From: Spirochaetota bacterium
GTDB taxonomy: Bacteria > Spirochaetota > JAHITG01 > JAFGFC01
Direction: 5' to 3'
Assembly: GCA_016931325.1 (NCBI GenBank)
Contig: JAFGFC010000143.1
Coordinates: 1 to 44,754, forward strand
DNA: 44,754 nucleotides
Positions within the stretch are counted from its first letter, which is position 1, and every line of letters starts with the position of its first letter. Below, in pieces: positions 4,601 through 28,215 of the stretch. Position numbers and translations under genes: made by a program. The notes under the pieces are model-generated. The model did no database searches. It was not told the origin of the DNA and saw only the letters and a program-made list of their open reading frames with translations.

Positions 4601-5661
4601 CAGAAAAAAGGAAATCGAAAATTAAATTGAATGTGGCAGTGAGAATGCCTAACTGGATCGGGGATGCGGTTCTGGCCACTCCCTTCCTCTATTTTTTAAA
4701 AAAATATCTTCCTCAAAGCCGCCTTATTCTGGTCATGCGCAAAAAGGTGAAAGATGTTTTTCAGCATAATCCTTATGTCGATAAAATGATCGTTATCGAT
4801 GATAAAAAGAAAGGATTATTTTCCACCCTGAAAGAAGGGATCAAATTAAGAAAATTGGATCTTGATCTGTTCTTCATCCTTCCTGACTCGTTATCTTCTG
4901 CGGTTCACTCCTGTTTCAGCAGGGCGCGCCTGAAAATCGGGTATCGAAAAGAGGCGCGTTCGGTTTTTTTAAACATCAAACCTGATAACCCCGGGAGAAC
5001 GATACACCGTGCGTTTAAATACCTGGAGCTTTTGGAAGAATACCTTGTGGCTCATGGCAACCATAACCGTGCCAGTATAAAAAAGGATTTTCTCAAGAAC
5101 ACAAAAGCAAGGATCTTTTTGACAAAAGAAGAGATAAAACAAGCAGACCTGATCTTAAAACCTTTTCCCGGAAAGAAGATCGGTTTTAATCCCAATGCTT
5201 CAGCCGTTTCCAGGCGATGGTTCCCTGACAGATTTGCGGCCCTGGCAGATGAGATAGCCAAACATCCGGGAAACAATATAATATTTTTTGGAGACAAAAA
5301 GGAAAAGGTTTATGTCGACCGTATCCTGAAAATGATGAAACAAAGGGGTGTTAACCTGGCCGGGTTCTTGAGCCTTCGCCAGTATATGGCCGTGCTTTCG
5401 AAACTTGACCTTTTCATCACCAATGATACCGGGCCCATGCACCTGGCTAATGCGGTGTTGACGCCGGTCATCGCCATTGAGGGAGCCGCCAGTGTGCCTG
5501 AAACCGGTATGGTCAATAAAGTAAAAAGTCAATATATAATAAAAAAAGTGGACTGCGGGCCCTGTGTTAAAAATGAGTGTCATAAAGGTCTTCAATGTCT
5601 GGATCTGATCCGCGTCAAGGATGTTCTGGAAGCGGTCAGGAAATATTTACAAAGCATTTGA
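4597..5661 (+). CDS. Glycosyltransferase family 9, heptosyltransferase II-like
   Basis: This 354-residue GT9 enzyme resembles heptosyltransferase II (WaaF) more than the first GT9. The N-terminal RMPNWIGDAVLATPFLYFLKK matches the WaaF-type start, and the C-terminal half has TNDTGPMHLANAVLTPVIAI. A Cys-containing tail (DCGPCVKNECHKGLQC) is present. It begins inside the stop of the GT4 gene. Its own TGA (5659-5661) lies within the -35 region of a candidate promoter for the next gene. A role in attaching the second inner-core heptose is plausible but unproven. Confidence 0.87.
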   Translation: MTEKRKSKIKLNVAVRMPNWIGDAVLATPFLYFLKKYLPQSRLILVMRKKVKDVFQHNPYVDKMIVIDDKKKGLFSTLKEGIKLRKLDLDLFFILPDSLSSAVHSCFSRARLKIGYRKEARSVFLNIKPDNPGRTIHRAFKYLELLEEYLVAHGNHNRASIKKDFLKNTKARIFLTKEEIKQADLILKPFPGKKIGFNPNASAVSRRWFPDRFAALADEIAKHPGNNIIFFGDKKEKVYVDRILKMMKQRGVNLAGFLSLRQYMAVLSKLDLFITNDTGPMHLANAVLTPVIAIEGAASVPETGMVNKVKSQYIIKKVDCGPCVKNECHKGLQCLDLIRVKDVLEAVRKYLQSI

Positions 5662-5685
5662 TTTTAGATTTTTTTATGCTATAAT
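5658..5685 (+). promoter_or_regulatory. Candidate promoter of the PorV-like gene
   Basis: TTGATT (5658-5663) and TATAAT (5680-5685) are 16 nt apart, with TG at the extended -10 position (TGCTATAAT, 5677-5685). The next start codon is only 7 nt after the -10, so the mRNA would be leaderless. It overlaps the stop of the GT9 gene. Confidence 0.5.
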
Positions 5686-5692
5686 ATATTTT

Positions 5693-6628
5693 ATGTTAAA
5701 ATTATTGTCTTTCTGCTTTTTGTTGTCTTATTCCATTCAACTATACGCTTCGGGTGAAAAAAGCAGTGTTATTTTCAACCAGAATCCTGTCCCCCTATCC
5801 GGTGGTATTGACATTCTCTGCTATGGCAAATCGACTGATATGGCGAGCCTGGTCTATAATCCGGCCTATGCGGTGGTCAATGATTTTTCAATCGGATTGG
5901 CTACAGAAATAATGCCTCTGGACATGAATTATCATTCTCTGGTGTATCTGGGGCCTTCACCCTTCAGCCATCCGGCAGGATTGGGAATCGTATTAAAGTA
6001 TTTTAAAAGCGGAGATATTCAGGGACTGGACTCGGCAGGAAATGAAACCGGCCTGTTTTCGCTGAACAATTTTATGGCTTCCATGATCCTGGGCTTTCAG
6101 GCCGGAAAAAATTCATTTTTAGGCGGCCGGTTGAACGTCATCAATGAGAAGATCGATCGTGATATCGATACAGCCGTTTCCCTGGATCTGGGCGCAGGGC
6201 TGGGCGCTTCGCTGGGAGCTCAAAAACTGAACGTGGGATTAAGTATCCTTAATCTGGGCACAAAAATGTGGGGACAGAGTCAGGCTTCAGGGATAGGAAC
6301 AGGCATGGTCTTTACTCTTAAAACAGCATCCAATGCTTTCCTGGAATACGGCCCGGCTTTTCGTTATCGGTCAGGTATGGACTGGGAAGCCGGAGGGGGT
6401 GTTCGATATTCATACGAACTGGCCTTTTCAAATAAACAGTACTTTAAATTCAAACTGGGTATGGGCTATTTCTACAAACCCGGAATAGAAGAGAACGGGT
6501 TTGTGAACGGCCTTATGAGCGGGTTGTTGGTCAGAACACCCTGGAGCCTGGATCTGGGTTATGAAATACTATTCTACCCCTGGGGGAGCAGCAACAGATT
6601 CCTTCTGGCTTATTATTTCCGCCGTTGA
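5693..6628 (+). CDS. PorV/UPF0164-type outer membrane beta-barrel protein
   Basis: This 311-residue protein is predicted to be an outer-membrane barrel. Residues 1-19 are a signal peptide (MLKLLSFCFLLSYSIQLYAS). The mature part has the family pattern of a Ser/Ala/Gly-rich start (YGKSTDMASLVYNPAYAVV, where a predicted Asn-Pro-Ala motif is kept) followed by many amphipathic strands and an aromatic C-terminus (LLAYYFRR). An in-frame ATG at 5621 would bury the signal peptide, so the start at 5693 is preferred although it lacks a Shine-Dalgarno sequence. The protein follows the LPS cassette but may be separately transcribed. A second, larger relative is encoded at 31485-34166. Function is unknown; PorV relatives act in type IX secretion or as lipid/hydrophobe channels. 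Confidence 0.72.
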   Translation: MLKLLSFCFLLSYSIQLYASGEKSSVIFNQNPVPLSGGIDILCYGKSTDMASLVYNPAYAVVNDFSIGLATEIMPLDMNYHSLVYLGPSPFSHPAGLGIVLKYFKSGDIQGLDSAGNETGLFSLNNFMASMILGFQAGKNSFLGGRLNVINEKIDRDIDTAVSLDLGAGLGASLGAQKLNVGLSILNLGTKMWGQSQASGIGTGMVFTLKTASNAFLEYGPAFRYRSGMDWEAGGGVRYSYELAFSNKQYFKFKLGMGYFYKPGIEENGFVNGLMSGLLVRTPWSLDLGYEILFYPWGSSNRFLLAYYFRR

Positions 6629-6780: not shown

Positions 6781-8250
6781 ATGGAACAGGAAGATAAACA
6801 TCCGGCTCAAACGACGGCAGGTTCTATAAAAGAGAACAAATCACCAAATTCAGATAAATCTTCCCCTTTGAAAGAAAACGATCTTACTCAATTCCTGGGA
6901 GATATATATAATGTGATCACACAATATATGATGGGAAATTATGCTGCCAGAGTCAATCCGGCCTCTTTAAAGTATCCCAATCAACAATTTTCTGACCTGG
7001 CGAAAATAATCAACCAGACCGGGGAAAAAACAGGGGAGCGTATCGCTTATTATTCCTCAGGCATCAATGACATGGTGGAGATCCTGGATAAAATCCAGCA
7101 GGGTGATCCGTCCCTGCGCATTCTGAAGGACTATAAAAATCCCGGTCTTTTAAAATTAAAACATTTTATCAACTCTGTTCTGGATCAGAGGAAAGAAAAG
7201 GACGGAGAATTGACAAATATAAGATCCGATATAGACAAGACCCTGCCTATTCATCTTGAAATCATGCGCCAGATAAAAGCCGGTTCATTAAATATGAAAG
7301 CCCCTGAAACCGCCGGGTCTGACCAGATAGCGAACCTGGGAAAAGCCATTAATGACGTGATCGCACTCTTCAAAGATCTCGTTGTCAGGATGAAGACCAG
7401 AATAAAAAACATGAACAGCTCTTTGCAAAAAATATCAGAAAGTCTTCAGAGTGATGCCGGGCGTTTCAGCGAACCGAAAAAGGTCATTGACGGCGCCTCC
7501 TCATCTGTACAACAGATATCAGAGATGACCGCGCAACTTGATAAAGGAGCCGGGGATCTTCTAAAGATGGCCCATCACCTCGATACCATGATGGAAAAAA
7601 CCACGGATATAATGGATCAGTTCCATTCTCTGATGAGTGATATTCAGAACCATTATCAATTGAATTCTTCCAGGGTAAATAATATTTTTCAGGATATCCA
7701 TTTGATAAAAGAATCTGTAGCCACGGTGTATGATGTCTCTCATATTACCGGCATCCTTTCTATTAACGCCTCTATCCAGGCTGAAAAGATCGGGGAACCC
7801 GGCAGGGATCTATCTGTGGTCACGGATGAGATAAGGGGTATTTCAAGACAGGTTTTACATCTGGCCACAAAGGCCCGAAAAGCATCCGATGAAATGGAAG
7901 CCACCATCCAAACTCTGCTTGATCTGAACGCCTCGCAGGTCGATATGATCAATAACGAGGTCGAACTGTCGGCTTCCATAAAGGAGACATTTCAGGACAT
8001 AAAAGACTATATCAGGAATTCACTTATATCAACAGCCAAACAGGTCTCCTCATTCGCGCTCAAGCAGGCTCCCCCGTTCAAGCAGATCACGGATTCCTTC
8101 AAGGCTATGGCGGATTCTGCGGGAAAGGCTAAACAGGTCAGTCAAAACGAAAAGGAAAAGATCCAGATACTGGCCGGCCATATCAGCGAGCTCGAAAAAG
8201 ACCTGGAGCGTTTTAAAACAGAAAACCGTGTTAAAGAAAAAAAACAATGA
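6781..8250 (+). CDS. Cytoplasmic chemoreceptor-like (MCP) protein with HAMP-like repeats
   Basis: This 489-residue protein lacks any membrane segment or signal peptide. After a polar N-terminal tail (1-35) come three HAMP-like units (about 55-90, 100-140 and 165-205), then a long coiled coil with a receptor-type hairpin tip. The tip reads SHITGILSINASIQAEKIGE (320-339) followed by PGRDLSVVTDEIRGISRQV, clearly related to the canonical MCP tip. Several contact positions differ: relative to E. coli Tsr, F373 is His321, E385 is Gln333 and R388 is Lys336, while N381 is kept (Asn329). The start has a good GGAGG Shine-Dalgarno sequence. The next two genes encode a ParA-type ATPase and a CheW-domain protein, so it is probably the receptor of a cytoplasmic cluster. 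No CheA is encoded nearby. Confidence 0.8.
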   Translation: MEQEDKHPAQTTAGSIKENKSPNSDKSSPLKENDLTQFLGDIYNVITQYMMGNYAARVNPASLKYPNQQFSDLAKIINQTGEKTGERIAYYSSGINDMVEILDKIQQGDPSLRILKDYKNPGLLKLKHFINSVLDQRKEKDGELTNIRSDIDKTLPIHLEIMRQIKAGSLNMKAPETAGSDQIANLGKAINDVIALFKDLVVRMKTRIKNMNSSLQKISESLQSDAGRFSEPKKVIDGASSSVQQISEMTAQLDKGAGDLLKMAHHLDTMMEKTTDIMDQFHSLMSDIQNHYQLNSSRVNNIFQDIHLIKESVATVYDVSHITGILSINASIQAEKIGEPGRDLSVVTDEIRGISRQVLHLATKARKASDEMEATIQTLLDLNASQVDMINNEVELSASIKETFQDIKDYIRNSLISTAKQVSSFALKQAPPFKQITDSFKAMADSAGKAKQVSQNEKEKIQILAGHISELEKDLERFKTENRVKEKKQ

Positions 8251-8292
8251 TCCCGGTCACTTGAAAAGAACGAATAGAATAATATTGAAAAT

Positions 8293-9063
8293 ATGAAAAA
8301 TAAGATCATATCCATAAGCAATCAAAAAGGCGGAGTAGCCAAAACATCGACCTGTATTAACCTCGGTCTGGCTCTGGGCCTGTATAAAAATAATGTTCTT
8401 CTTATAGATCTTGATGCTCAATCCAATCTGTCATTGGCCCTGGGGCTCAAAGATAAAAAATCGATCTATGATGTTCTGTCATCCGGTAACGGTGATCTAT
8501 CCGGCATTATCATTAAAACTGATTTTACAAATCTGTCCGTCATCCCCTCCAATGGGAATATGGGGCTCATGAGCCGTGAATATTTTGGCCGCCCTGACTA
8601 TGAATATATGCTCCAGGATAAATTCGAAGCCCTGAGGGATAAATACGATTTCATTCTTATTGATACGCCGCCTTCCCTTGGATTTTTTTCCGTTAATGCC
8701 TTGACATCATCCGATATGGTCATTATTCCTTCACAATGCGAGTATCTTTCTGTTGTAGGCGTCAAGCAGACCATGACGATCATACACACAGTAAAGAACA
8801 AGATCAAAAAAGACCTCCCGTTCAGGATTTTGGTCGCGATGTATGATCAGAGAAATAATGTGGAACAAATGTTCTATGCTCAATTGAAAAAAACCTATGG
8901 AGATAAATTATACAATACGATCATCAGCACAGACACGAAAGTAAAGGAATCCCAGATCGTGGGTAAACCTGTTATCTATTATTCTAAAAAAAGCAAGGCG
9001 GGATTACAATACCTTACTCTGGCCAAAGAAATACTGGGAGGGATGACGAATGGTCAGCAATGA
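8293..9063 (+). CDS. ParA/MinD-family ATPase of a chemotaxis cassette
   Basis: This 256-residue protein is a ParA-type P-loop ATPase that would dimerise on ATP and bind the nucleoid. The deviant Walker A is NQKGGVAKTST (residues 10-20) with signature Lys12 and P-loop Lys17; Ala16 replaces the more common Gly. The A' motif is LLIDLDAQSNLSLALG and Walker B is FILIDTPPSLGF. There is no HTH domain, so it is the short form used for cargo positioning rather than a plasmid ParA. It follows the chemoreceptor-like gene by 42 nt and overlaps the CheW-domain gene by 14 nt. By analogy with Vibrio ParC and Rhodobacter PpfA it is likely to position a chemoreceptor array; this is inference from family and context. 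Confidence 0.88.
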   Translation: MKNKIISISNQKGGVAKTSTCINLGLALGLYKNNVLLIDLDAQSNLSLALGLKDKKSIYDVLSSGNGDLSGIIIKTDFTNLSVIPSNGNMGLMSREYFGRPDYEYMLQDKFEALRDKYDFILIDTPPSLGFFSVNALTSSDMVIIPSQCEYLSVVGVKQTMTIIHTVKNKIKKDLPFRILVAMYDQRNNVEQMFYAQLKKTYGDKLYNTIISTDTKVKESQIVGKPVIYYSKKSKAGLQYLTLAKEILGGMTNGQQ

Positions 9064-9715
9064 AATAAGGGAAAGGATAAACGAACTTTTATCAGAAGAA
9101 TTTGATATCAAAGTGCCTTTAAGTGATGCCGCGCCGGTATCATCCGGCAAAAAGATCAAAAGGGCCAAACCTGCAAAAAAAGAGAAATTACCTTTAAAAC
9201 CGCAGGATCAAACTACTGACAAAAGATCCGTTGATAAAAAGAAAAAAAAACCTTCTTCCAAAGTGACAGCGCCCCTGGTCCCGCGCCCCCCGGCCACTCG
9301 ATTGCTCTTATTTTCCCTGGGTCAGGATCATTACAGCGCCTGCCTGTTGGACCTTGATGAGATCCAATCTTATTACAATATCATCCCTATCCCCGGGAAC
9401 GAACTGGTTGAAGGGATCTTGCCCCACAGAGGAAAGATCGTTACCATCGTGGATATTAATAAAGTTTTACAGATAGAGCCTTCCCGTCAAAACCTGCCCA
9501 TCCCGCTGCCTCTGGTCATTACAGGGTCCCTGGGGTTTAAAGTGGACAGGATCATCGATATTATTCAAATTGATAATTCCCGGATCAAAAAAATATCACC
9601 GGCCGAAGAAAAAATGAAAACGTCTTACATCGATCGGACGGTTCAATATAAGAACAAACCGGTGGGTATTATTAATTTGAAAAAATTACTTTCCCAGAAC
9701 TTTACCTCCTCCTGA
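9050..9715 (+). CDS. CheW-domain protein with basic N-terminal arm (ParP-like candidate)
   Basis: This 221-residue protein has a CheW fold at about 85-217 (LLLFSLGQDHYSACLLDLDEIQSYYNIIPIPG..., with GILPHRGKIVTIVDINKVL and PVGIINLKKLL). Residues 1-80 form an extra arm: a short helix (NEIRERINELLSEEF) and a disordered Lys/Pro-rich linker containing KKIKRAKPAKKEK and KKKKK. An ordinary CheW is only about 150 residues, so the arm is an addition. ParP of Vibrio likewise joins a CheW-like domain to an N-terminal region that contacts the ParA-type ATPase ParC, and basic arms stimulate ParA ATPases in other systems. The start overlaps the parA stop and has a GGGAGG Shine-Dalgarno sequence at about 9039-9044. 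CheW identity is confident; the ParP-like role is inferred. Confidence 0.83.
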   Translation: MVSNEIRERINELLSEEFDIKVPLSDAAPVSSGKKIKRAKPAKKEKLPLKPQDQTTDKRSVDKKKKKPSSKVTAPLVPRPPATRLLLFSLGQDHYSACLLDLDEIQSYYNIIPIPGNELVEGILPHRGKIVTIVDINKVLQIEPSRQNLPIPLPLVITGSLGFKVDRIIDIIQIDNSRIKKISPAEEKMKTSYIDRTVQYKNKPVGIINLKKLLSQNFTSS

Positions 9716-27780: not shown

Positions 27781-28215
27781 ATGAACAAGCCAAGTAGTAA
27801 GACCCAATATGAACGCTACAAAGAGACACAGATCAAAACCGCTTCACAGGGGAAACTGATCGTCATGTTATACGACGGGGCTATCCGTTTCCTCAATATG
27901 GCTAGATCCTTTATCGATGAAAAAAATATCGAAGATTCCCATAAGAATATTGTAAAAGCCCAGGATATTATCATGGAACTTTTACTCTCTCTCAATATGG
28001 AAGCTGGTGAGATCGCCCAAAAGCTCTATAATCTCTATCTGTATCTCAATAAAAAACTGATGGAAGCCAATATGTATAAGAAGAAAGAACCCATTGATGA
28101 GGTAATAAAGATCCTCTCTGAGATGAGAGAGGTCTGGGAAGAAGCGGCCAGTAAAACCACTTCCAACAGCGGATCAGCATTAGAAAAGAACAACAGTGTA
28201 AACATCTCCACCTGA
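27781..28215 (+). CDS. fliS: Flagellar export chaperone FliS
   Basis: This 144-residue helical protein would hold flagellin in the cytoplasm before export. Its start contains YERYKETQIKTASQGKLIVMLYDGAIRFLNMA, the family signature, and the four-helix pattern continues through LYLYLNKKLMEAN to VWEEAA, followed by a Ser/Asn-rich tail. It comes 22 nt after tlyA, with no flagellin or FliD beside it. It shows that the organism makes flagella, and converges with the YihY gene. Confidence 0.92.
   Translation: MNKPSSKTQYERYKETQIKTASQGKLIVMLYDGAIRFLNMARSFIDEKNIEDSHKNIVKAQDIIMELLLSLNMEAGEIAQKLYNLYLYLNKKLMEANMYKKKEPIDEVIKILSEMREVWEEAASKTTSNSGSALEKNNSVNIST

Follow-up and report, generated by a model that had tools for sequence, protein, structure and literature searches.

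ParA/PpfA homologues encoded in che operons without ParB have been found in 77 of 206 species (37%; Hamer et al., PMC2829493). In Halothiobacillus neapolitanus (Hn0722/Hn0723), ParC is required for the assembly and the position of the chemosensory cluster, parC overlaps the gene of its CheW partner, and the contact of partner proteins with such ATPases is said to be made by charged, disordered N-termini (PMC10241942). The Vibrio partner ParP binds ParC with its N-terminal part, which is followed by a proline-rich linker and a CheW-like domain; its AIF domain is reported to be closer to CheA-P5 than to CheW, and the Vibrio ParC/ParP arrays are polar (PMC5706961). In Rhodobacter sphaeroides, PpfA has the soluble receptor TlpT as its binding partner on the nucleoid, where a cytoplasmic cluster is found, and CheOp3 encodes both proteins (PMC10924463, PMC2829493). 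With the Vibrio, Rhodobacter and Halothiobacillus systems and surveys of che-operon ParAs published, this kind of positioning ATPase is already known.

We analysed a 44,754-nucleotide stretch of DNA from a Spirochaetota bacterium (the window, on contig C171) that carries a further arrangement of this kind. An earlier note on this DNA had described three adjacent genes for a receptor-like protein, a ParA-type ATPase and a CheW-domain protein with an N-terminal arm, the last two overlapping; all three open reading frames are intact where it placed them, and the overlap is real (Table 1). cheW begins at 9050 and shares its first 14 nt with parA; GGGAGGG stands seven bases 5' of this start, and translation of cheW is likely coupled to that of parA. 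The start of the receptor gene is preceded by GGAGGT. Just 5' of the trio, at 5621-6628, lies a gene for a PorV/PorQ-like outer-membrane protein (NCBIfam PorV_fam, E 2e-10, below the cut-off).

Table 1. Coordinates of the three genes and of selected elements, in window positions.
Feature	Position	Strand	Remarks
Soluble chemoreceptor-like gene	6781..8250	+	489 aa, frame intact
Receptor hairpin tip, about ITGILSINASIQAEKIGEPGRDLSVVTDEI	7744..7833	+	approximate bounds
ParA-type ATPase gene	8293..9063	+	256 aa, frame intact, catalytic residues kept
cheW ribosome-binding site GGGAGGG	9036..9042	+	within the parA 3' end; from the sequence
CheW-domain gene	9050..9715	+	221 aa, frame intact, 14 nt shared with parA
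CheW N-terminal arm, residues 1-82	9050..9295	+	from composition; low-confidence model

The arrangement resembles the Halothiobacillus pair by description: in both, the ATPase gene overlaps the CheW gene, and the N-terminus of the partner, proposed there as the ATPase contact, is proposed here in the form of the arm. The Halothiobacillus pair lies within a chemotaxis operon, whereas the CheA of the window genome is encoded on another contig and the third gene of the window encodes a diverged soluble receptor. With Rhodobacter CheOp3 the window shares a ParA homologue and a soluble receptor in one unit. Given CheOp3, the 37% of surveyed species and the published parC-CheW overlap, the suggestion that a unit combining receptor, ATPase and adaptor is special in itself was overstated. 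We consider it fairly probable that the trio serves to position a chemosensory array, with the CheW arm as the link between array and ParA.

The ATPase matches AAA_31 with an E-value of 5.5e-51. Its Walker motif reads QKGGVAKTS, and K12, K17, D39, D41 and D124 are invariant in the alignment; by these motif criteria it is classed as a positioning ATPase of the ParA/MinD family, ParA branch. Receptor and CheW genes adjoin it, and no parB lies beside it. Of the 80 best relatives listed in a scan of named genomes, 79 lie beside parB. In 60 genomes of the phylum to which the window belongs, the closest ParAs are chromosomal and adjoin parB, and the best pairwise matches there reach 37-43% identity, which would suit a chromosome or plasmid partition ParA that lies next to chemotaxis genes by chance. 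We regard this origin as highly improbable, as an AU test rejected a grouping with chromosomal ParAs (p 3.9e-5), no parB is found nearby, the sister clade lies wholly in che operons, and the genome has a separate chromosomal parAB on contig C118, next to rsmG and mnmE, the usual chromosomal locus.

The top relative among those listed is encoded in a chemosensory operon of a Desulfatitalea metagenome-assembled genome (G149), with 46% identity and an E-value of 6e-79, against 3e-57 for the runner-up. At E-values below 1e-57, the subfamily of the window ParA occurs in five of 395 Desulfobacterota genomes (G149, G365, G387, G469 and G505); these proteins are 45-46% identical to the window ParA, and all five are encoded in che operons with CheA and CheB. 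In a tree of 93 ParA proteins, built without the Vibrio ParC and PpfA sequences, the window ParA and the five form one clade with a support of 100. Together with the AU result, in a test set beforehand, this agrees with the expectation that the ATPase groups with cargo-positioning rather than plasmid or chromosome ParAs. The sequences point to an apparently undescribed chemosensory ParA subfamily common to two phyla.

All five Desulfobacterota genomes share one operon type, which encodes CheA, a CheB-like protein, CheB, a zinc-ribbon ParA, a HAMP membrane protein, a permease and an ABC transporter; receptor, CheW and CheY precede it where the contig extends far enough and the gene caller detected them. 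The zinc ribbon is N-terminal in the one member scanned. None of the five che operons holds an armed CheW, so members of the subfamily do not always come with the arm, which counts against the array-positioning reading. The window ParA, in contrast, is encoded with an armed CheW and without CheA. In the operon of the five genomes (loci L204, L205, L206, L207 and L208), the HAMP-domain membrane protein has no signalling domain, and a SafE-like permease and a nitrate/sulfonate-type ABC transporter are combined with two CheB-like proteins and a chemosensory kinase. The operon of L204-L208 is possibly a chemosensory system coupled to uptake.

The third protein of the trio has a CheW domain at residues 85-216 (E 8e-15), which scores 79.5 bits against the CheW profile and 8.8 against that of CheA-P5. 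On paper the protein resembles Vibrio ParP, with a putative N-terminal partner-binding part, a proline-containing linker and a C-terminal CheW fold. However, the ParP AIF is closer to P5 and the window domain is CheW-like, and we therefore rejected membership in the ParP family. The best tree likewise places the domain with CheWs, although the alternative was not rejected (AU p 0.36). The protein sits on a very long branch, and its join with the CheW of genome G029 is probably long-branch attraction.

The first 82 residues form the arm, with 16 Lys, 10 Pro, a net charge of +10 and a pI of 10.1. Its positive charge is concentrated between residues 30 and 72, at net +13, whereas the first 24 residues are slightly acidic (net -3). 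A low-confidence single-sequence model (pLDDT 39 for the CheW protein) predicts a helix at residues 4-17, followed by a disordered, basic, proline-containing linker. The proposed Lys/Pro-rich arm is hence confirmed in its length, its prolines and its overall basic character, although the N-terminus proper is short, probably helical and slightly acidic, and it is the linker that is basic. As residues 1-24 are the expected ATPase contact, their acidic net charge counts against the array-positioning reading. Among 38 standalone CheWs, arms of more than 75 residues were found only in the window protein, in G002 and G048, and possibly in G001.

The receptor matches MCPsignal at residues 285-445 (E 3e-11; 43.8 bits, Pfam cut-off 34.6). 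A transmembrane receptor was rejected, as no stretch of the sequence is hydrophobic (the 19-residue Kyte-Doolittle mean peaks at 1.02). It appears to consist of a polar N-terminal tail, a HAMP-like helical region at about residues 30-210 and a coiled-coil hairpin, whose tip lies near residues 337-343; its single-sequence model is of low confidence (pLDDT 45). The HAMP-like region is weakly supported: one segment matches with an E-value of 0.028, below the cut-off, and two segments have no match. It resembles a G001 receptor, whose own HAMP match is also below the cut-off. No methylation-site consensus was found in the sequence. The G001 protein, a soluble receptor similar in its N-terminal half (G001:C2, L075, 1654-3339), is encoded 3' of hydrogenase-maturation-like genes, and its tip, I-E-A-S-S, likewise has no usual Arg.

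The solubility of the receptor and its polar tail bear on the main rival to a contact through the CheW arm. ParA could have its partner in the receptor itself, in the way that PpfA has TlpT, with the N-terminal tail of the receptor touching ParA and nucleating a cytoplasmic cluster, while the arm would be a linker or a DNA binder. TlpT both binds PpfA and nucleates its cluster (PMC10924463), and FrzCD binds the nucleoid directly by a basic N-terminal tail that tethers its clusters there (PMC5716589). The position of the arm charge in residues 30-72 is also more in keeping with DNA binding or a spacer than with a charged extreme N-terminus. We nevertheless consider this alternative unlikely: the overlap of parA and cheW favours CheW as the direct partner, as does a parA-cheW pair without adjoining receptor in G002.

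The tip of the window receptor reads N-A-S-I-Q-A-E-K, against a canonical N-A-A-I-E-A-A-R, while the tip of the MCP on contig C142 of the same genome is canonical. The changed E and R are trimer-contact positions in Tsr, which makes normal activation of a kinase by this receptor doubtful. A receptor that may not activate CheA, in a unit without CheA and in a flagellated cell, would also suit a control in the reverse direction, in which receptor and CheW govern ParA, and a signal sets the ATPase to place something else, e.g. flagella. In the published work searched we found no precedent for such a control, and the relatives of the ParA sit in ordinary CheA operons; we hold it to be quite improbable.

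Three CheW-domain matches were found in the whole genome (2.88 Mb in 204 contigs, 95% complete): a CheW and a CheA on contig C142 and the window gene. As the earlier note had observed, no CheA or CheY lies near the trio; contig C171 has no response-regulator domain and no second CheW or CheA, and the 22 response-regulator matches lie elsewhere. The CheA sought elsewhere in the genome is the only one it has; on C142 the gene order is cheW, mcp, cheA, the neighbours being an ordinary CheW and one of three MCPs. Its Pfam domains are Hpt, P2, dimerisation, HATPase and CheW. CheOp3 differs in having its own CheAs and in the adaptation of TlpT by CheR3/CheB2, whereas no CheB match was found in the window genome, of which 5% may be missing. 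The chemosensory system of this genome (G000) apparently lacks the standard adaptation enzyme, the CheB methylesterase. Flagellar rod genes are present in the genome, and at 27781-28215 of the window a gene for a FliS-like flagellar chaperone is seen on inspection of the sequence, which fits a flagellated cell.

Conservation of the three-gene order, which the earlier note had set as a check, was not found. The trio is unique among the genomes searched: no receptor orthologue occurs in 149 genomes of the phylum, a receptor-based scan of named genomes gave no relative, and 393 genomes of the phylum contain no further member of the ParA subfamily. This uniqueness also counts against the array-positioning reading. 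A partial parallel is seen in G002, from the same order, where parA lies directly 5' of the gene for a CheW with an arm of ~118 residues and no receptor is adjacent. The G002 ParA is very divergent from that of the window and the G002 arm is not net basic; orthology between the two parA-cheW pairs is neither demonstrated nor rejected (AU p 0.12). At this locus (G002:C315, L085, 1423-3242, minus strand), a ParA with an N-terminal helical extension and the armed CheW are followed by an NtrC-type regulator. In G021, parA near cheW is part of a full che operon, and the order in G029 is cheA, cheW, parA, soluble receptor. The G029 locus (G029:C69, L073, 5367-9139, minus strand) has a cheA without a recognisable Hpt and a soluble receptor of 291 residues. 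In the best tree, the CheW-adjacent ParAs of the phylum fall into more than one clade, which suggests that links between ParA and CheW arose more than once, although a single clade was not rejected (p 0.09).

The missing conservation, the degenerate receptor tip and the very long CheW branch could together mark a former chemosensory operon in decay, its CheA lost and its remaining proteins drifting, with little function. Since all three frames are intact, receptor and cheW have good ribosome-binding sites and every ATPase motif residue is retained, we judge this very improbable. Of the proposal of an array-partitioning system, the placement of the ParA among che-operon ATPases and the presence of CheA elsewhere in the genome stand, while the conserved order and the distinctiveness of the single unit do not.

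For the preferred array-positioning module, we propose that ATP-bound ParA would dimerise on a surface that serves for positioning, in all likelihood the nucleoid. Through its CheW domain, the third protein would insert into the chemoreceptor/CheA lattice, and its basic N-terminal arm would bind the ParA dimer and stimulate ATP hydrolysis. As a result, the lattice could be tethered or spaced, so that one is inherited per daughter cell. The soluble receptor would be made along with them, as a cytoplasmic part of the lattice or as its nucleator, with CheA, the ordinary CheW and the ordinary receptor supplied by the second operon on contig C142. A variant that we consider improbable is a kinase-free unit, in which the diverged receptor, the armed CheW and ParA form a nucleoid scaffold of their own, apart from the CheA array.

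The trio is probably a lineage-specific form of a known kind, a positioning cassette without CheA and with a degenerate soluble receptor, whose mechanism we infer. What is distinctive here is the three-gene layout without CheA, the degenerate soluble receptor, the long basic arm and the apparently undescribed ParA subfamily. If a kinase-free scaffold were true, a chemoreceptor-type lattice would be used without signalling, either as a scaffold or as a cargo that is partitioned. For the array-positioning module, a positioning cassette that is genetically apart from the kinase operon could be transferred to another host, and such a separate cassette would permit the arm alone to be tried as a cargo tag.
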